A DNA stretch of 29,892 nt from a virus: positions 1-29,892 of the IMG/VR virus record IMGVR_UViG_3300035211_000068. The stretch is one strand, 5' to 3'. Each line of letters starts with the position of its first letter. The stretch's first letter is position 1. Under the pieces are notes generated by a model. The model searched no databases. It saw only the letters and a list, made by a program, of their open reading frames with translations, and had not been told where the DNA came from. Positions 9,747-26,736 of the stretch are shown piece after piece. The position numbers and the translations under genes are program-made.

Positions 9747-9834
9747 TAAAAAAATATTGTAAAAATATACAAAATATATTATAATATAAGAGGATTTATT
9801 TTGTTTCTTTTCAATGTTGGATATCAGAAAGCAC

Positions 9835-9873
9835 AAAAAAAGTTCTGTCTAATAATGGCAGAACTTTTTTTTT
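9835..9873. terminator. Bidirectional Rho-independent terminator
   Basis: GTTCTG (9842-9847) pairs with CAGAAC (9859-9864), extended by the flanking A and T runs. The loop can be shortened by an inner C-G pair and a U-G wobble. The A run (9835-9841) and T run (9865-9873) provide a U-tract in both directions. It ends the long late transcript after the XhlA-like gene at 9953 and separates it from the promoter at 9718-9746. Confidence 0.88.
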
Positions 9874-9952
9874 GCTACCTACTAACAAATTATAATAAAG
9901 GACCTAACAATAAATGATATAATGATTGAATATAATTATATTATACTATAAT

Positions 9953-13200: not shown

Positions 13201-15020
13201 GTATCCTTGGATGCTAATTTATATTTATCTATATAATACTCCATAATTTTTTTGGGCTCGCTGGAGCCAATTTTGGCTTTAATTTTGCTGCCTATTGTAT
13301 CTAGTAACTTTTTAGATGTATTATAAGCCATACTTTTTCGTACCTTATTATTAACACCTTTAAGACTGGTATCAAGCTTAAATTCTTTTTCAAAAGCAGT
13401 GGCTTCTTTTGTAATAGTAGAAGCCTTTGGTTTTATTTTCTTAAAACCTCTCTGTAATCCTTCACCGCCTACTTCAAAACCGATTCCAGATGCTATCATC
13501 ATTGCTATATTTTCAGGAGTTCTTTCTTCTTTAGTCATAAAAGGTAGCGCAGCTATTGTACCTGCTGTACCAAAACCAGCACCACGAGTAGCTTTTTTAC
13601 CAAGGGTACCTAATAAAGACCTTGTAGGCCCAATACCTTTTTCAACTCCTTTTACTGCACCTTCACCAGCGATAAAGAAAGCTGCTTCTTTAGCTGCATT
13701 CCTTATATAATCTTTAGCTTCTGCATCTCTTTTCTTAAGAGTCTCTAGTATTCCATATGAGCCCCCTGTTATAGCATTTTTGATAATATGTGCAGCTATT
13801 TTTGATTTAGTTACACCAGTCGCAGCTGCACCTACTTTATCCAAGACTATAAATTCCATAACTATAGCTGCAAGTTCTCCTAAAGTCATGCCTATTTTTT
13901 CTTTTAAATCCATTTCGTAATTTTTACCCTTACCCATTAATGCCTTGATAGTATCTTCTTTATCTTCTTCTCTTGCTGCTGATATTTCAGCTTTAGAAGC
14001 CCCCGCTGCCATAGCATCTGTTTCTTTACTATACCCTTTCGGCCATGGATGTTTTTCCATTTCATCAGCCATTTTATTAAAGTCTGCTAATTTTTTTTCA
14101 CTGTCCTTAGTTAATTTTCCATCTTTAAGTTGTAATTTTAAGTCCTTATAGTATTCAGGATCATGAATATAGCCCTTATTCTTTTCTAGGCCACCCCAGG
14201 GATTAGTAACCGGGTCTGGTACAATTCCAGTAGGGTCAATCTCTTCAAGCAGTGTTTGGAAAGCAGTCCTTAACATCTGTGGGCTCTCCTTATTAGTTAA
14301 AAAATCACCAGCAGCTCTAAAAGGTGCAGTAGCCTCGTATCCAAAGCCACCAATAAAAGATGAAGCTGTATCCTTAACTTCACCAAAAAAATTTCCTACT
14401 TTTTCGCCGAATGATTCTTTTCTTTGTGAAATAGAGCCATCATTGCCTAGTCTTGCTATTTTTTTAGCCTGGTCATTCATTTGCTGCATAAATTTAAGTC
14501 TTAAAGTATTTGGGTCAAGGGGGACATCTGATACTTCTTGCTTGGATACAGACTTAATACCATCTTTAGTTACATAGTAATAATTGTGCTCATTTTCCCC
14601 GAACACTTCTATCTCTTTTTGCTGAGTAATAACACTTGCTCCTGAGTCATAATCTATAGTTTTAAATTTATAGACTTTTTTAGCTTTCAATAGTGGCCTT
14701 GCATTAAATTTAGCCAAATAAGAGCCAAAGCTTTTACCAGGTTTAATAGTATTTTCTTTTAATGTAGTTTTAAAATCGGGCTCTTTTAAATCTTTAAAAA
14801 CTGTTACTCTATTAAAAGCATATTGCTGCTCAATAGTCTGCGGGCTATATTCATTTCTAGAAGGTGTATATGCTTTTTTAGTAGGAGCTGAAAGATTAGG
14901 CTTATACAACATAGACTTTTGTCCAGCTTTTTCTATCTGGTATTTATGCTCTAATTCTTTTTCTCTATTTATATATTTATCTGCCTCATTTTCATACTCA
15001 AATACGTCATACCATGCCAT
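10218..15020 (-). CDS. Giant polyvalent internal/ejected virion protein with HExxH zincin site and LPD38-like region
   Basis: This 1600-residue protein is probably packed in the head and ejected with the DNA. A charged N-terminal region (1-370) precedes small hydrophobic, Gly/Ala-rich helices (about 375-530). A zincin-like domain follows, with GIRHEIEHIID (H655, E656, H659) and a likely third ligand in NIYKNEVKEKAVD (about 705-717). Residues 795-980 and 1125-1345 resemble phage polyvalent-protein modules; VYNPFFAVRNIARD (1143-1156) is what I recall of LPD38. The Gly/Ala-rich helices and a hydrophobic patch near 1325-1340 could insert in a membrane. No lysozyme or transglycosylase motif is seen. 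ATG 15020 follows GGGAGGTGCTATAA. It is cotranscribed with the NlpC/P60 protein and the sulfur enzyme. Confidence 0.8.
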   Translation of the reverse strand: MAWYDVFEYENEADKYINREKELEHKYQIEKAGQKSMLYKPNLSAPTKKAYTPSRNEYSPQTIEQQYAFNRVTVFKDLKEPDFKTTLKENTIKPGKSFGSYLAKFNARPLLKAKKVYKFKTIDYDSGASVITQQKEIEVFGENEHNYYYVTKDGIKSVSKQEVSDVPLDPNTLRLKFMQQMNDQAKKIARLGNDGSISQRKESFGEKVGNFFGEVKDTASSFIGGFGYEATAPFRAAGDFLTNKESPQMLRTAFQTLLEEIDPTGIVPDPVTNPWGGLEKNKGYIHDPEYYKDLKLQLKDGKLTKDSEKKLADFNKMADEMEKHPWPKGYSKETDAMAAGASKAEISAAREEDKEDTIKALMGKGKNYEMDLKEKIGMTLGELAAIVMEFIVLDKVGAAATGVTKSKIAAHIIKNAITGGSYGILETLKKRDAEAKDYIRNAAKEAAFFIAGEGAVKGVEKGIGPTRSLLGTLGKKATRGAGFGTAGTIAALPFMTKEERTPENIAMMIASGIGFEVGGEGLQRGFKKIKPKASTITKEATAFEKEFKLDTSLKGVNNKVRKSMAYNTSKKLLDTIGSKIKAKIGSSEPKKIMEYYIDKYKLASKDTKIIVDKTLRGESKFARVEFKKEDGVVKEIEIRINKSKSENEIVAGIRHEIEHIIDKQKGYKKPMRDVLIEKPKTLREYMEKGMHHKEYKNFEIDYLENIYKNEVKEKAVDTARKIQLREKIKNTTGEKQKQLVQEFKAIKQRERERMGLDIVPEGSSLANEKLQARNRQITEASNLPVYIKPREKAKSKISRMWDKFYTHVFNRQQGIDKTGKRVKMTSQNYVKHHATSNYINTENLVSRTGDKIGDKSLKDVLVAPKGFQAEYESYLLHRHHIGRMANKKPVLFKTNAEGKEEAIPIAEAKEIVKMYEEQFPQLKKHAEDLYQFIDDFMREWAVDGGLLTEREYQKMRYLYPDYVPTFRDIESMGLDAKTKVIKVKALKEATGGDDPILPLMESLPFQIQKIVRAERRNQIGQELITAILYDKEAMAPFAQVVNTEKLGKHKAELLSKINEFSNKEFSIGELSKKFDEMLITGNKIKGNFMIVMEGGKPITLKINDKGLWDALATIQNANTANKVEITKLINKHVTNKFKSVVTVYNPFFAVRNIARDIPTAYIQGSVSNPFTFGANIIGALKDRLLKNEMYQKFKALGGTSSNITNVEDALREKGAIKKIVEPIFKFLNFFGDVSETVPRLAEFKHVYKKSLRSGMAEAQAAKEALYMSGEVTINFSRGGDVTKSLDAIFPYINAGTQGIDKWVRSLFIEGIGKGNFKPVAKALGVTTVPTIVFYFLNNYIWGKEAYNDIPDYAKDTYYLVPAWDGHYWRIPKTRENGFLFSTLFERLERHFIQKDPDAFKGLGDTFLKTYLDPVTQVAKGGFFGPIITITSGNNKDYFGRDIEPLSARLSKKSKRYITKESTSKASKALAPLLEKIGWSPAQADYLIQSYAGIIADFVLAVNDSEDSWINKAKRGSHLFHDTRYGGKAQSKIYGDKDKAAQAVADFEEENGIAKIKADAKAEGIKSTKLINHRIMEQLGNSLWSEYQALKEKKKELNKIE

Positions 15021-15831
15021 TTATAGCACCTCCCTTGACTATATTTCGTACTCTGACTAAACCAATTTTTTTAGCAAAAGTATAAGAAGCTGGTTCTATA
15101 ATTTTTAAGCGGTCTATTCTATCTGGATTTTTTTCTAAATGTATGCCATATAGACAAAATTTACATCCAGTACTTCTCTCATATTTATAAATATCACATA
15201 TATTAATATTATTTTTTCTTATAAATTTATCTATTAACTCGTCTGACCATAACCGTAAAGGTACACATTTATTAGGTAAAATACATGTGTGATACCTCTG
15301 CTTTCTTAAATTGCTTTCAACTATTCTTTCACCAGTAATATATTTAAATTTTAATTTTTTAAGAGGTGCTTTCTTTAAATGATAGCAACAATAGCTAGAT
15401 ATTTTAATATTAGTATCTAATAGAAATCTCCATTTATTAGATAATCTAAAATTACCTTTTTTAGCTAGTCTTATATTTTTAGTTTTTTCGCAACAATTGG
15501 GATTTCTAATATCATAAATATATTGAGATTGTTCTTTACTTATAACTGGATATCCATATTTTTTAATAACCTGGGTAAAACTCATAATTGGCTTTACCCA
15601 GGTTATGTCTTTGAAAGTTTTAACAAAATCAATAATACTATTAAACTCAACTCCTGTATTACAGAAAACACAAGGTATATTAAGTCCCATCATATTTCTA
15701 ATTATATACAGTAAAACAGTACTATCTTTACCACCTGAAAAACTTAAAGCTGTATTATCGTGAATTTCTAAATATTTTTTTATAGTTAAAATAGTTTTGT
15801 TTATAAGCATAGTTTCATAATCAGTAAACAT
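15007..15831 (-). CDS. APS/PAPS-reductase-like (phosphoadenosine phosphosulfate reductase family) enzyme with Fe-S ligands
   Basis: I start at ATG 15831, six bases after GGGAGG; an upstream ATG would overlap the previous gene. The 274-residue protein has a PP-loop SFSGGKDSTVLL (30-41), FCNTGVEF (56-63), ITGERIVESNLRKQRY (165-180) and PLRLWSDELIDKFI (191-204), the classic order of PAPS-reductase/ATP-sulfurtransferase enzymes. CCYHLKKAPLKK (C148, C149) plus TGCKFC (C223, C226) match the CC...CxxC ligands of [4Fe-4S] APS reductases and DndC-like proteins. Candidate roles are sulfate reduction, DNA or nucleotide thio-modification, or RNA thiolation. It sits between two virion-protein genes, looks more A/T-rich than either, and is flanked by a 15-base direct repeat, suggesting inserted cargo. 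Confidence 0.82.
   Translation of the reverse strand: MFTDYETMLINKTILTIKKYLEIHDNTALSFSGGKDSTVLLYIIRNMMGLNIPCVFCNTGVEFNSIIDFVKTFKDITWVKPIMSFTQVIKKYGYPVISKEQSQYIYDIRNPNCCEKTKNIRLAKKGNFRLSNKWRFLLDTNIKISSYCCYHLKKAPLKKLKFKYITGERIVESNLRKQRYHTCILPNKCVPLRLWSDELIDKFIRKNNINICDIYKYERSTGCKFCLYGIHLEKNPDRIDRLKIIEPASYTFAKKIGLVRVRNIVKGGAINGMV
15022..15036 (-). repeat. 15-base direct repeat, copy 2 (ribosome site of the 1600-residue protein)
   Basis: AAGGGAGGTGCTATA on the minus strand is identical to 15831-15845. It holds the ribosome site of the gene starting at 15020. The two copies lie 809 bases apart and bracket the PAPS-reductase-like gene. Confidence 0.85.
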
Positions 15832-15845
15832 ATAGCACCTCCCTT
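15831..15845 (-). repeat. 15-base direct repeat, copy 1 (ribosome site of the PAPS-reductase-like gene)
   Basis: AAGGGAGGTGCTATA on the minus strand, with the last A being the first base of the ATG at 15831. Identity over the whole leader, beyond the GGGAGG core, is more than ribosome binding needs and suggests a duplication made when the gene between the copies was inserted. Confidence 0.85.
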
Positions 15846-17803
15846 TACCCATACCTCGCGTCATAGTAATTTTTTGATGTAAGGCCTGTATTTTTTTTCA
15901 TATAGGCTTTTAAAGCTTTCTCAGTTTCTGGACCAAACCAACCATCACTTGTTATTCCTAATTTTTTCTGTAACTTAGCTACTGCACTTGAAGTTAGAGG
16001 GCCATAAGCACCATCAACATCTAGTTTCTTACCATTAGCATCTTTAATACCTAAATCATTTAAAGCCCTCTGTATTTCGGATGTGCCCATACCTGACCAG
16101 TTTTTACCTGTAGAACCTGGCTTATAAGTCGAACTGTACGGAGATACTACATTTCCGCTGCCGCTGCTTGTACTCTTAGAACTGCTAGACGACCCGCTGA
16201 TTATGCGCCTTGCCTGCGAGTACTGGCCTATTGAGTTCATATCATTGATTACTACTTTTCCGTAATAGCTGCTTGCATGCATAACCTGACCATTACCAAC
16301 ATATATTCCTACGTGGCCGTTAGCCTTGGTAGTATTGAAGAATACTAAGTCTCCTGGCTGTAAGTCACTCTTAGATACATATGTTCCCTCTTTAACCTGT
16401 GTTTGAGTTGTCCGGGATATATCTATTCCATGCTGCTTAAATGCCCACTGAGTAAAAGCAGAACAATCCATGCCGCTTGTAGTACTTTCACCGCCGTATA
16501 CATACTTAAGGCCAAGCAGACTCTTACCTGTAGCTATTATTCCAGCTGCTGAAGCTGTAAGCCCTTTACCTGTAGCTATATCTTTATTTAAAGTATGTTC
16601 ATAGTCAGCAAGTTTTTTATCATATTCATACTGCTCTTGCATAAGTTTCTTTTGTGCAGCTGTATCAAGTTCATTTTTATATTTTATTAAGTCTTTTTCT
16701 ATTTTTGCCTGGTCTTTTTGAAGTTTAACACTGTTTTCATGTTCTTTTTTTATTCTTTCAAGTTCCTGTTGTTGTGCTAATTCTAATTCCTTAACCCACT
16801 GTGCAGGAGTTCCAACAGGCATACCAAGAACTATAGCCGTATTATTATCGACATATCCTATAGCCTCAACTCTTTTATAAGCTGCATCAATTTCCTGTAT
16901 CTGCCTTTGTAATTGCAAGGATTGCTGCTCTAACTGATACTCCCGGTCAAAGTTTCTCTGTTCTAACATTACTTGAAATTTTTGAAAATTTTGTGCATCA
17001 AGTTTCATAATATAGTCAAATTTTGTTTTAACTAAGTCTAACTGGTCCTGGTATCTATCAGCCTGCATAGCATCCCACTGCATAAGCGTAGATACCATGC
17101 TAAGTTCTCTATTTTTCTGGTCAGCAAACCTCTGATACTGTGCAGCCTCATATTGTGGTATTAAGGCTGCCTGCTGCAATGCAGTTTGTCCTATAGTACC
17201 CGAAGAATATAAAGTACCTTTGCTGCTAGCAGCTTCCTGTACTTTTTGTGCTGCTAATTTTTGTGCTTGAATAAGTGCTTGATCTTGAGTAGGGTCATAA
17301 GTAAATGGCTGGTTAGCTGACTGCAATAAATTGTATAAATACTGCTGTAATTCTTCAGGTGTTTGATAAGGAGTAATATTTTTAAGTTCTTCTAATATCT
17401 GATTTATTTCCTGCTCATATGGACTTTTATACTCTCCTGTTTCAGTAGTACCAGTAGGCTGCATCTGTTGCTGTTGCTGATTTGATAACTCTTGGTATGA
17501 AGTTAATAAATTTTCGTACACACTTTCTGAAGCATATCCATTTTGAAGTGTATTTGTTAGTTGTCCTGGGAGTTCTATCCCATTTATAGTATAGCTGTTA
17601 TTATTAGAATCATATGAATAATCATAGCCCTTAGCAGTAAGCCAATCATTAAACTTATATGGACTCTGTGAAACTGCACTCTCCGCTGAAAAAGCAGCAA
17701 CATTACTCTGCGTAGGTTGTAATTGATAATCCTGTAAAGATTTCATAACACTATCAAGCCCTACATTACTCATACTAGCTAAAATATCACTCATAGATGT
17801 CAT
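15845..17803 (-). CDS. Virion coiled-coil protein with NlpC/P60 endopeptidase and peptidoglycan-binding domain
   Basis: The 652-residue protein has a Gln-rich N-terminal body (1-345) homologous to the next protein upstream, a charged coiled coil (about 340-405), an NlpC/P60 domain (about 425-537) and a PG_binding_1 domain (about 570-637). The catalytic triad is visible: MDCSAF (C447), NGHVGIY (H497), VMHASS (H509). The Ser-rich linker 537-550 joins the last two domains. It probably sits in the virion or tail tip and opens the peptidoglycan for DNA entry, cutting D-gamma-glutamyl-diaminopimelate-type bonds, rather than acting at lysis, because it is fused to a structural body within the virion operon. 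ATG 17803 overlaps the upstream stop (ATGA). Confidence 0.88.
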   Translation of the reverse strand: MTSMSDILASMSNVGLDSVMKSLQDYQLQPTQSNVAAFSAESAVSQSPYKFNDWLTAKGYDYSYDSNNNSYTINGIELPGQLTNTLQNGYASESVYENLLTSYQELSNQQQQQMQPTGTTETGEYKSPYEQEINQILEELKNITPYQTPEELQQYLYNLLQSANQPFTYDPTQDQALIQAQKLAAQKVQEAASSKGTLYSSGTIGQTALQQAALIPQYEAAQYQRFADQKNRELSMVSTLMQWDAMQADRYQDQLDLVKTKFDYIMKLDAQNFQKFQVMLEQRNFDREYQLEQQSLQLQRQIQEIDAAYKRVEAIGYVDNNTAIVLGMPVGTPAQWVKELELAQQQELERIKKEHENSVKLQKDQAKIEKDLIKYKNELDTAAQKKLMQEQYEYDKKLADYEHTLNKDIATGKGLTASAAGIIATGKSLLGLKYVYGGESTTSGMDCSAFTQWAFKQHGIDISRTTQTQVKEGTYVSKSDLQPGDLVFFNTTKANGHVGIYVGNGQVMHASSYYGKVVINDMNSIGQYSQARRIISGSSSSSKSTSSGSGNVVSPYSSTYKPGSTGKNWSGMGTSEIQRALNDLGIKDANGKKLDVDGAYGPLTSSAVAKLQKKLGITSDGWFGPETEKALKAYMKKNTGLTSKNYYDARYG

Positions 17804-23678: not shown

Positions 23679-23796
23679 AAACTAAATCGCTCCCTTCTTT
23701 ATTTAATATAAATATCAGAAATATTAAAAACTCTGGTTATAGCCCCTACTTTTATACTTTTTATAAGCATACATAAAAATTCTCCTATACAAACAA

Positions 23797-23815
23797 AGCC
23801 TCCAGTGAGGAGGCT
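23797..23815 (-). terminator. Terminator between head and tail modules
   Basis: On the minus strand GCCTCC-TCACT-GGAGGC (23814-23798), extended by one A-U pair, is followed by TTTGTTTG. This is a compact G/C-rich stem in A/T-rich DNA, 15 bases after the stop of the decoration-like gene. The U-tract is interrupted, so partial termination is likely. No promoter is visible before the next gene at 23678; tail genes would be read by leakage. The remainder of the gap (23679-23796) holds no convincing gene. Confidence 0.75.
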
Positions 23816-23830
23816 CTGCAATATTATATG

Positions 23831-24334: not shown

Positions 24335-24396
24335 GCTATCTCTCCTTTCTTAAAAAATATGAAAAGGAGGTCTGGCCTCTCTATATTCAAATATAC

Positions 24397-25293
24397 TTAA
24401 ACTCCCGCATTATATACTATACCTATATTAGGCAAACACCCAGTCTGATACATTGCTATAGAGTTAAAATACATGTTTTTAGTGTATCTCTTGTCATAAT
24501 CATTATCAAAGCTGGTCTTCATGAACCATTGAAATAGTATGTGCTCATAACTAGGGTCCCACATAGCCCACGCAGTTTGACTAGACAAATATGTTGAATA
24601 ACTCCACGAAATATTAGGTAAAATATTTTTAGTATTACTCATTTCATTTGCTTTATTTATGGATTTAAATACTTCTTCAATAGTAAGCTGATTAACAAAA
24701 TGCGTAAGCCCTCTACCTGGTCTTGCTTTCATTGGACCACCTGCATGATTTTTAAAAGCATAAAACATATTTATCATAGTTTTATGATTGTCAGGGTCTG
24801 CCAATGATGATGCAGTAGCTAATGTATCATTAACATCAGCTGAATCTCGCAGTGGCTTAGAATTGCTTGCTAACGGCACACCATCAGCTAAGTTTACTGT
24901 TAAAGCATTATCAAACCAATAAATAGCTCTTTGTTCTTCAAGCTCCCTCATTGTCCTGGCAAGTTCTTTAGCCCTAGCTGAATTTATACAACCATAAAGG
25001 TCATATTTCATAGCCTCCATAGTAAATTCATAGCCATTTGCCCAGGTCTTATTAGTAATTCTGGTCTGGTAAGCCTGCCTTATCTTACCATATTCTATTG
25101 CACCACCTTCGATTTTCTGTGATGCAGCTTTCAAGTTACCCATGCTATCATAAGTCTCAGTTTCTTTGGTAGATGTCTTTGGTGTAGTAAACTTAGGATG
25201 CTCCAAAGGGTAACTATCAAAATTCCTTGTATAAATCTCTTTCTGTCCTGCTAAAAGCATTCTAGAAATATCATCACTTAATGTATATGCCAT
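24397..25293 (-). CDS. Major capsid protein (HK97-fold, gpT-like)
   Basis: I chose ATG 25293 (MAYTLSDDISRMLLAGQKEI) because AAAGGAGG is six bases upstream; a frame start at 25317 lies ahead of that site. The 298-residue protein has an N-terminal arm, YDSMGNLKAASQKIEGGAIE (an E-loop-like region, about 48-67), the helix AKELARTMRELEEQRAIYWF (spine helix, about 113-132), then YAFKNHAGGPMKARPGRGLTHF and the C-terminal beta part. Size, helix-then-sheet order and placement after scaffold and head accessory protein fit a HK97-type shell protein of the Mu gpT-like group. No protease gene is seen in the window. Confidence 0.8.
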   Translation of the reverse strand: MAYTLSDDISRMLLAGQKEIYTRNFDSYPLEHPKFTTPKTSTKETETYDSMGNLKAASQKIEGGAIEYGKIRQAYQTRITNKTWANGYEFTMEAMKYDLYGCINSARAKELARTMRELEEQRAIYWFDNALTVNLADGVPLASNSKPLRDSADVNDTLATASSLADPDNHKTMINMFYAFKNHAGGPMKARPGRGLTHFVNQLTIEEVFKSINKANEMSNTKNILPNISWSYSTYLSSQTAWAMWDPSYEHILFQWFMKTSFDNDYDKRYTKNMYFNSIAMYQTGCLPNIGIVYNAGV

Positions 25294-25306: not shown

Positions 25307-25813
25307 TTACCAAGCAATCACTGAGCTATTACGCACAGGAAAACCTATTATTTTTCTTCTACTAGTACTAAAAGCAGATATCTGCAAGAACCTTGCATCT
25401 GAAGTACCTGGCTCAGTACCTACATTACCCATAGAAAGCACTGCACCTGCGACTGTAGCAGCCGTAGACAAACCTATATATTTTCCAATATCAGTTGTCG
25501 CAGGGTGAGTAGCAGAATATAGAGTAGAATAATCCATTTCTATTTTCTCAGTAGGGTCAAACTTTCTATAATAAATTGGTATAGTACTTCCAGCTGTGCT
25601 ACCACCAGTAGTATCTACTTTTGCTACATACCCCGCAAAAAAGGACGTAGAAAAACTAGACCCACCTGTGCCAAGGTCAACCGTATTACCAGTTTTGAAA
25701 AGCAAACGGCCAACATCAGTACTCATAATAGCCTGAGCAGCTGAAGCGTATACCAACCCTGGTACCAAACTTGTAATTTTAGTATTAATAGGATTAATTA
25801 TATTAGCTGGCAT
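25307..25813 (-). CDS. Small head protein between scaffold and capsid genes (decoration-type candidate)
   Basis: The frame opens at ATG 25825, but AAGGAG touches that codon with no spacing, so I prefer ATG 25813 (MPANIINPINTKITSL), six bases after GAGG. The 168-residue product is a Gly/Ser/Thr-rich beta protein with VGRLLFKTGNTVDLGTGG, FFAGYVAKVDT and GKYIGLSTAATVAGAVLSMG, resembling DUF2190-like head decoration proteins in look and position. Its start and GAGG lie in the arm of a 20-bp hairpin (25804-25860), so translation is probably regulated. The stop is 13 bases before the capsid ATG. Confidence 0.65.
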   Translation of the reverse strand: MPANIINPINTKITSLVPGLVYASAAQAIMSTDVGRLLFKTGNTVDLGTGGSSFSTSFFAGYVAKVDTTGGSTAGSTIPIYYRKFDPTEKIEMDYSTLYSATHPATTDIGKYIGLSTAATVAGAVLSMGNVGTEPGTSDARFLQISAFSTSRRKIIGFPVRNSSVIAW

Positions 25814-25860
25814 TTGTTGCCTCATCTCCTTTTTAGCTAGGAGGCAACAAATGCCAACTA
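25804..25860 (-). promoter_or_regulatory. Long hairpin sequestering the start of the head accessory gene
   Basis: Arms 25804-25823 and 25841-25860 pair over 20 positions with one mismatch (25807/25857); the loop is 17 bases (25824-25840). On the minus strand the AAGGAG site sits in the loop, while the chosen ATG (25813) and its GAGG are in the stem. No U-tract follows, so it is not a simple terminator. It fills almost all of the gap after the scaffold gene. Possible roles are translational control of scaffold-to-accessory ratio, or RNase III processing. Confidence 0.7.
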
Positions 25861-25861
25861 G

Positions 25862-26629
25862 CTAAGATTTAATACTCTTAAGATATTTTTCAGCCGTCCA
25901 TTTAAAATCAGGCTGAAGTTTTTGAAGTGTTCTTAAATTTTTTGCATCTTCAGGACTCAATTTGGTACTACTTGTAGCAGTACCAGAACTTGTCGCAACA
26001 TTTGATTTCTTACTTACTGTACCTTTATTAGCTGAAGCTGCTTTTTTAACTTCCTGGTCAATCTTTGCCTCTTTCATTTTAGTAGTAGGGCCGACGACCA
26101 TTAAATAAGCTTCTTCAACACCTAATGTCTCTCCAGCTCTGGAAAAACTTTTAATTTTATTTTTAATTTGTTCCTTATAATCCTTAATATCTGCATAGAA
26201 ACTATCCGTCGATAAATCATCTATCTGAGTATCAAGAATCATATCCTTCTTTGACTGCCTGAGTGTACCAAAATCACTATATATAGTAGCAGCCATTTCA
26301 GCCGCAGCTGTAGCCGTAGGTTCATCAAATCCATTATCAAGCCACTGCTTTTTGATAATAGCTTTTTTGGCCTTAATACTATTATCAAACTCAGCATCTT
26401 CCTTCTCAGCTAATTTAGCCTCTAAAGCTTTTCGCTTCTTTTTTTCAGACAAAAATGTAGCCAAGGGTACACTTTCTTCCTTGGCCTCTTTGGGCTCTTC
26501 ACTTTCATCTACTTCTTCATTATCATCGACCTCTTCGGGCTCTTCATTTTCAGTAGAATCAAGGTTTTCGTTTTCTTCGGGCTCATTGGCCTCTAAATTT
26601 TCTTCACTTTTCTTTTTTTCATCGTCCAT
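25862..26629 (-). CDS. Capsid scaffolding protein
   Basis: The 255-residue protein has an extremely acidic N-terminus (1-55, almost all E, D and N), then helical charged segments (LATFLSEKKKRKALEAKLAE), a middle region, a Ser/Thr/Ala/Lys linker (about 205-225) and a short basic C-terminal segment ending KWTAEKYLKSIKS. Acidic coil plus basic capsid-binding tail is typical of phage scaffolds, as is its place just upstream of head genes. GGGAGG is ten bases before ATG 26629, and the gene is the first one after the promoter at 26708-26736. Confidence 0.8.
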   Translation of the reverse strand: MDDEKKKSEENLEANEPEENENLDSTENEEPEEVDDNEEVDESEEPKEAKEESVPLATFLSEKKKRKALEAKLAEKEDAEFDNSIKAKKAIIKKQWLDNGFDEPTATAAAEMAATIYSDFGTLRQSKKDMILDTQIDDLSTDSFYADIKDYKEQIKNKIKSFSRAGETLGVEEAYLMVVGPTTKMKEAKIDQEVKKAASANKGTVSKKSNVATSSGTATSSTKLSPEDAKNLRTLQKLQPDFKWTAEKYLKSIKS

Positions 26630-26683
26630 GAATTTTTAACCTCCCATGAATTAGGAGTAGCACCTTTAACTTAAGGCAGAAGA

Positions 26684-26703
26684 GTAGTAGTAAATACTAC
26701 TAC
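26684..26703 (-). promoter_or_regulatory. Perfect dyad at the transcript start (5' hairpin or operator)
   Basis: GTAGTAGTA-TT-TACTACTAC is a perfect 9+9 inverted repeat that begins five bases after the -10 box, so transcription from the head promoter would start inside or at its edge. As RNA it would form a hairpin at the extreme 5' end, which is known to stabilise bacterial messages. As DNA it could be a repressor or activator site. The sequence cannot tell which. Confidence 0.65.
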
Positions 26704-26707
26704 CTTG

Positions 26708-26736
26708 ATTATATGCAAAAAAAATTATTTTGTCAA
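26708..26736 (-). promoter_or_regulatory. Consensus sigma-A promoter of the head module
   Basis: TTGACA (26736-26731), 17-base spacer, TATAAT (26713-26708) on the minus strand: a full consensus match in all twelve positions with ideal spacing. The -35 box is made of the last codons (LLTK) of the preceding gene. The A/T-rich leader is about 72 bases to the scaffold ATG. This predicts strong transcription of the head genes by unmodified host polymerase, with no phage sigma needed. Confidence 0.9.

Follow-up and report, generated by a model that had tools for sequence, protein, structure and literature searches.

A conserved pair of competing RNA hairpins between putative scaffold and accessory head genes of a phage: a candidate translational switch

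Introduction

From a single mRNA, phages have to produce their scaffold, capsid and accessory head proteins at defined ratios. Upstream translation is usually described as aiding expression of the next gene. In the leaders of the resistance genes ermC and cat, which are regulated by translational attenuation, a drug-stalled ribosome on a short leader peptide turns the gene on. In the transcription attenuation of amino-acid operons, exemplified by the trp leader, the off structure is a transcription terminator. Translational coupling by RNA unfolding operates in the pairs f1 VII/IX, MS2 coat/lysis and rpmI-rplT (PMC12548453), and the lambda cIII leader adopts two mRNA conformations, with the involvement of RNase III (PMC2777011). 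Bistable leaders, attenuation and coupling are all known kinds of control (PMC12548453, PMC2777011).

Here we analyse the gap between the putative scaffold gene and the accessory head gene of a 29.9-kb virus record, IMGVR_UViG_3300035211_000068; this whole stretch of DNA is called the window below. Like ermC and cat, the gap holds mutually exclusive hairpins, and a ribosome on the upstream frame would decide whether the downstream Shine-Dalgarno is free; the difference is that a full structural gene serves as the upstream frame, the ribosome would be terminating and the predicted effect is to turn the next gene off. As in the trp leader, a ribosome at a stop codon would mask one segment and let the downstream segment pair form the off structure, which here hides a ribosome site instead. 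The gap shares with the coupled pairs an upstream stop, a structured spacer and a hidden downstream ribosome site, but it also has a second, competing hairpin, and its anti-Shine-Dalgarno is out of the terminating ribosome's reach. In common with lambda cIII, the conformation of a phage mRNA would open or close the ribosome site, although for cIII the trigger is RNase III binding and no stop codon is built in.

Results

The head genes of the window lie on the minus strand in the order putative scaffold, accessory head gene, major capsid gene. The major capsid gene (24397-25293, 298 aa) matches PHROG 371, major head protein, at 5e-8, and weakly Phage_capsid_4. The putative scaffold gene (25862-26629), which precedes the capsid gene region, encodes an acidic protein of 255 aa with 34-86% identity among relatives and without a match in Pfam and PHROG searches. 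The accessory gene, also of putative function (25307-25813, 168 aa, 38-92% identity in relatives), has no family match in Pfam and PHROG and no match in the PDB, and its AlphaFold model is weak (pLDDT 65). Since neither protein matches any family, both names are taken from gene position. A predicted promoter (TTGACA-17-TATAAT, 26708-26736 on the minus strand, 12/12 consensus) would start a transcript of scaffold, accessory and capsid genes. Such a promoter stands before the scaffold gene in the window and eight relatives (L004, L005, L007-L011, L092), with 11-12/12 consensus positions and a spacer of 17 or 18, and in most of them overlaps the 3' part of the upstream gene. A terminator-like GC-rich hairpin directly follows the stop of the gene 3' of the capsid gene (about 23775-23830, minus strand); it has the same position in L004, L005, L007, L009 and L010, is followed in several by a U-rich stretch, and is likely the end of the head transcript.

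The inverted repeat at 25804-25823 and 25841-25860 has 20-nt arms complementary at 19 of 20 positions (95%) and a 17-nt loop. Folded as minus-strand RNA it forms a hairpin, B, of -37.9 kcal/mol against a mean of -16.4 for 200 dinucleotide shuffles, none of which was as low (z = -7.36); the 20-bp hairpin of the preliminary description is therefore real. The CCUC at 25844-25841 in its 5' arm (25841-25860) pairs with the Shine-Dalgarno GAGG (25820-25823), recognised by its spacing 6 nt 5' of the conserved accessory start. The 3' arm (25804-25823), segment 3 in what follows, contains this GAGG and, in its middle, the start codon ATG (25813-25811). The program-listed accessory frame begins at ATG 25825; relatives conserve the N-terminus MPAN..., which begins at 25813-25811. 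The loop motif AAGGAG, considered as a ribosome site for ATG 25825, abuts that ATG and is too close to serve. The start codon does lie in the stem, as had been described, and the ribosome site sits not in the loop but at the loop-proximal end of the stem. The scaffold stop, TAG at 25864-25862, is found just before the hairpin as claimed, one base 5' of the 5' arm. Opening the ribosome site at the accessory start costs 18.4 kcal/mol, the highest value for 32 gene starts in the window (the next is 15.4), and by folding, hairpin B gives the downstream gene a hidden ribosome site of the kind seen in coupling by RNA unfolding. An Rfam search returned only chance microRNA-precursor matches, far under threshold (23.8 vs 95 bits).

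When the part of the leader 5' of the Shine-Dalgarno was folded, a second hairpin, A, appeared, with 12 pairs and -17.7 kcal/mol (UUAGCUAG-UU-GGCA/UGCC-UC-CUAGCUAA) and the scaffold stop UAG within its 5' arm. This arm, segment 1 (25852-25865, minus strand), comprises UUAGCUAG at 25865-25858 and GGCA at 25855-25852; the 3' arm, segment 2 (25833-25846), comprises UGCC at 25846-25843 and CUAGCUAA at 25840-25833. Hairpins A and B use the middle segment in common and are mutually exclusive, and A leaves the ribosome site free: opening it in the window takes 6.3 kcal/mol with A formed, against 20.8 at equilibrium, where B dominates. The hairpin first described is accordingly half of the element, its competitor having been missed.

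Relatives were collected by protein searches of viral contigs; their capsid proteins are 51-91% identical, with one distant at 35%. Eight distinct leaders carry both hairpins: those of the window, L003 (identical to L004), L005 (identical to L006), L007, L008, L009 (identical to the L103 leader), L010 and L092. The seven relatives have capsid proteins 69-91% identical to that of the window, and the gaps in the set measure 37-55 nt. By folding, all eight leaders have the layout of a translational attenuator, with exclusive hairpins, a common segment and one fold that hides the Shine-Dalgarno, L007 being the weakest case; the scaffold frame overlaps the first segment, and its stop lies inside segment 1 or adjoins it. 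For each leader, the fraction of shuffles reaching both the A and the B energies was 0-0.005. The leaders fall into sub-groups (window/L003; L005; L007/L008/L010; L009; L092) that are mostly without convincing alignment to one another, some pairs scoring above shuffles. The preliminary description had named conservation of the arms in relatives as a check: the start-hiding hairpin is kept, with its pairing conserved and its sequence not. Because the 3' arm of A complements the Shine-Dalgarno whenever its 5' arm resembles one, we also held the paired bases of A fixed and permuted the rest. B was still better than in the permutations in six leaders (p 0.001-0.013), with p of 0.058 in L008 and 0.099 in L007; these values are not to be multiplied, since the eight leaders are related and amount to no more than four or five independent sequence types.

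The hairpin pair is absent by folding from L091, L093, L095-L098, L100, L109 and L112, with gaps of 5-32 nt, and L126, L128, L138, L141, L143 and L145 have short gaps and plain ribosome sites. In L011, which also lacks the pair, the stop and the Shine-Dalgarno occupy the 5' and the 3' arm of one small hairpin, and a terminating ribosome could reach the anti-Shine-Dalgarno, the usual layout for coupling. Other junctions of the phages that carry the pair show partial features at some places; only the scaffold-accessory junction is strong in every phage, in a scan whose automatic start choice is crude and for L007 took a start further downstream. On the capsid tree the eight leaders require two label changes, and the relatives without the pair form one group (90/92 support), the distant L144 excepted, a topology compatible with a single origin without proving one. 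No relatives were found in cellular genomes. Named phages match the capsid protein only distantly (24-32%) and do not match the accessory protein, and in two that have gene tables only short gaps separate the genes 5' of the capsid gene.

At equilibrium the best fold is B in the window, L003, L005, L008 and L092, and A in L007, L009 and L010. On a growing RNA, A comes first in all eight leaders: it is the best fold from start-22/-29 onward, well ahead of completion of the ribosome site. In L007, L009 and L010 B never takes over stably; in the other leaders it does so only once the RNA has grown close to the start codon or past it. If a ribosome is placed at the scaffold stop, B is already the better fold at start-11 to -4, when the start codon has yet to be transcribed. 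For the change from A to B, a direct path gives a barrier of 17-29 kcal/mol, which is an upper bound, so that A should last unless something, for example a ribosome, opens it.

When a stop codon occupies its A site, a ribosome shields roughly 9 nt 3' of the stop (toeprints at +15 to +17). Counted from the last base of the stop, the 5' arm of A starts 3-9 nt upstream in all eight leaders, and for 9-16 of the A pairs the 5' partner lies no further than stop+9. The 3' end of A falls at start-16 to -22, a figure limited by the cutting of the fold at start-14. In every leader the pairing partners of the Shine-Dalgarno are located between stop+10 and stop+29. A terminating ribosome should thus remove most of A and spare the closing part of B, and, the anti-Shine-Dalgarno being at +10 or beyond, the Shine-Dalgarno half of B should stay closed. 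In modelled energies, which ignore proteins, S1 and the ribosome's helicase, opening costs 6.3-8.7 kcal/mol with A formed. Placing a ribosome at the stop (+9) gives 12.5-19.0, a higher cost in 8/8 leaders; relative to free RNA, the cost with the ribosome is higher in 6/8. L007 shows little contrast, and so does L008 if the footprint reaches +12 (8.6 vs 7.1).

Discussion

Both folds, their mutual exclusion, their conserved arrangement and their placement relative to stop and start are shown by computation, and the two-fold structure of the leader is well supported. Leaving aside the direction of control, we consider it highly probable that the gap forms a conserved, bistable piece of RNA that affects accessory translation. 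What we infer from the computed folds is their formation in cells, the role of the ribosome as trigger and the sign of the effect. The reading we tentatively favour, though we put it somewhat short of an even chance, is that this gap works as a bistable translational switch of three segments whose closed form is favoured by the terminating scaffold ribosome, as in an attenuator. Segment 1 overlaps the scaffold stop, segment 2 lies in the middle, and segment 3 holds the Shine-Dalgarno and the accessory start. Segments 1 and 2 would pair first on nascent RNA, as hairpin A, which ends some 20 nt 5' of the start and would leave the ribosome site open, and pairing of 2 with 3 (hairpin B) would hide it. 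A ribosome terminating at the scaffold stop would mask segment 1 and not segment 2, so that A would be lost, B would be free to form and accessory translation would fall. Where scaffold translation is low, or where the RNA has yet to be reached by a scaffold ribosome, A would keep the site open. Such attenuator-like control is predicted to be opposite in sign to the simple coupling of the preliminary description. The sign could be wrong if closely trailing ribosomes prevent A, if helicase action opens RNA beyond the footprint, or if the choice of fold is made by a protein.

Ordinary coupling by RNA unfolding, in which B shuts the accessory gene and ribosomes finishing scaffold open it, was the reading first offered for this hairpin; we judge it unlikely. 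Coupling is well documented elsewhere, including phage f1 VII/IX and MS2 coat/lysis (PMC12548453), the window folds best as B and would have the start-codon half of that stem freed, and a ribosome at the stop modestly lowers the modelled opening cost in the window (20.8 to 17.3 kcal/mol) and in L003 (19.6 to 13.6). The Shine-Dalgarno half nevertheless stays paired in all eight leaders and the cost rises in six, the conserved hairpin A and the placement of the anti-Shine-Dalgarno are left unexplained, and gaps of 37-55 nt are long for coupling, those of relatives without the pair being 5-32 nt. That A comes first everywhere and that B is the end state in five leaders would also suit a co-transcriptional timer, in which new mRNA allows a brief period of accessory translation before B closes regardless of scaffold ribosomes. 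The barriers, which are upper bounds, look too high for unaided refolding during infection, and L007, L009 and L010 do not end up in B, which makes a timer improbable. Scarcely better placed is a trans-acting factor (the scaffold, the accessory protein or a host RNA-binding protein) that binds one fold and sets the state, with ribosomes playing a minor part. Autogenous control of scaffold is known in P22, and a similar switchable scaffold leader in L005 and L007-L010 means that one factor could serve both sites; against this, the sequence of the element mostly differs between sub-groups, and for that reason no common binding site is visible. Nothing in the analysis indicates binding of the leader by the accessory protein or cleavage by RNase III, both raised in the preliminary description.

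Two further explanations would make the start codon or the hairpin itself incidental, and we regard both as very improbable. A stem of 20 pairs is a plausible RNase III substrate, and U residues follow hairpin A in L009, as they would at an intrinsic terminator, with the start codon there by accident. The stems of L010 have only 8-9 pairs, however, leaders other than that of L009 lack a U tract (in the window none follows A or B) and a terminator scan was negative here. The inverted repeat could also be a functionless by-product of template switching during replication: the window and L003 differ reciprocally in both arms (GUU/AAC vs AA/UU), for which one event could suffice. Such an event gives no reason to expect a second, overlapping hairpin at a constant position with respect to stop and start across eight leaders. 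Readthrough of the UAG to fuse scaffold and accessory proteins was rejected as well; the gap is open and in frame only in the window (25862-25813 on the minus strand, gap 48) and L009 (gap 54), and the arrangement is not conserved, being out of frame in the other six leaders.

A related layout is seen one gene upstream. In the scaffold leader of the window (26630-26705, minus strand) and of L005, L007, L008, L009, L010 and L092, a CUCC segment can pair with the scaffold Shine-Dalgarno. A GGAG-like segment close to the predicted 5' end of the mRNA can pair with the same CUCC in L005 and L007-L010, a three-segment layout, although in L005 the predicted promoter may start transcription 3' of segment 1; the window and L004 show only the Shine-Dalgarno hairpin clearly. 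These upstream layouts mostly have no stop codon in segment 1, and a trigger other than a terminating ribosome is therefore possible. They suggest a general style of these phages, or a common factor, and it is mainly this likeness that keeps our confidence in the three-segment switch on the low side of even.

The constituent kinds of control are already known; a terminating ribosome that shuts the next structural gene we have not found described. A literature search, which covered few subscription journals, returned no paper on negative coupling or on such an intergenic switch in phage head genes. The full proposal, that ribosomes finishing the putative scaffold shut the accessory gene by negative coupling, with the stop codon as sensor and a topology selected while the sequence turns over, is one we hold more loosely still, as a reasonable possibility. 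If true, it would provide a simple RNA means of tying two proteins inversely, less scaffold translation giving more accessory protein, and a conserved case opposite to the usual one would add a rule for reading polycistronic mRNAs.

Other features were noted along the way. A sequence-motif scan of viral contigs for GGCATTTGTTGCCTC returned 73 contigs, none of them among the relatives from the protein searches. In the gap between the capsid gene and the next gene (24335-24396 on the minus strand, and 5898-5955 in L004), CUCCUUUU can pair with the AAAGGAG of the ribosome site, and a small upstream GAGG/CCUC hairpin could compete with this pairing. A protein with a PAPS-reductase domain (15007-15864, minus strand, 2.4e-13) is flanked by large virion-type genes, and an intergenic region at 9817-9889 contains a long imperfect inverted repeat with 31-nt arms matching at 77%.
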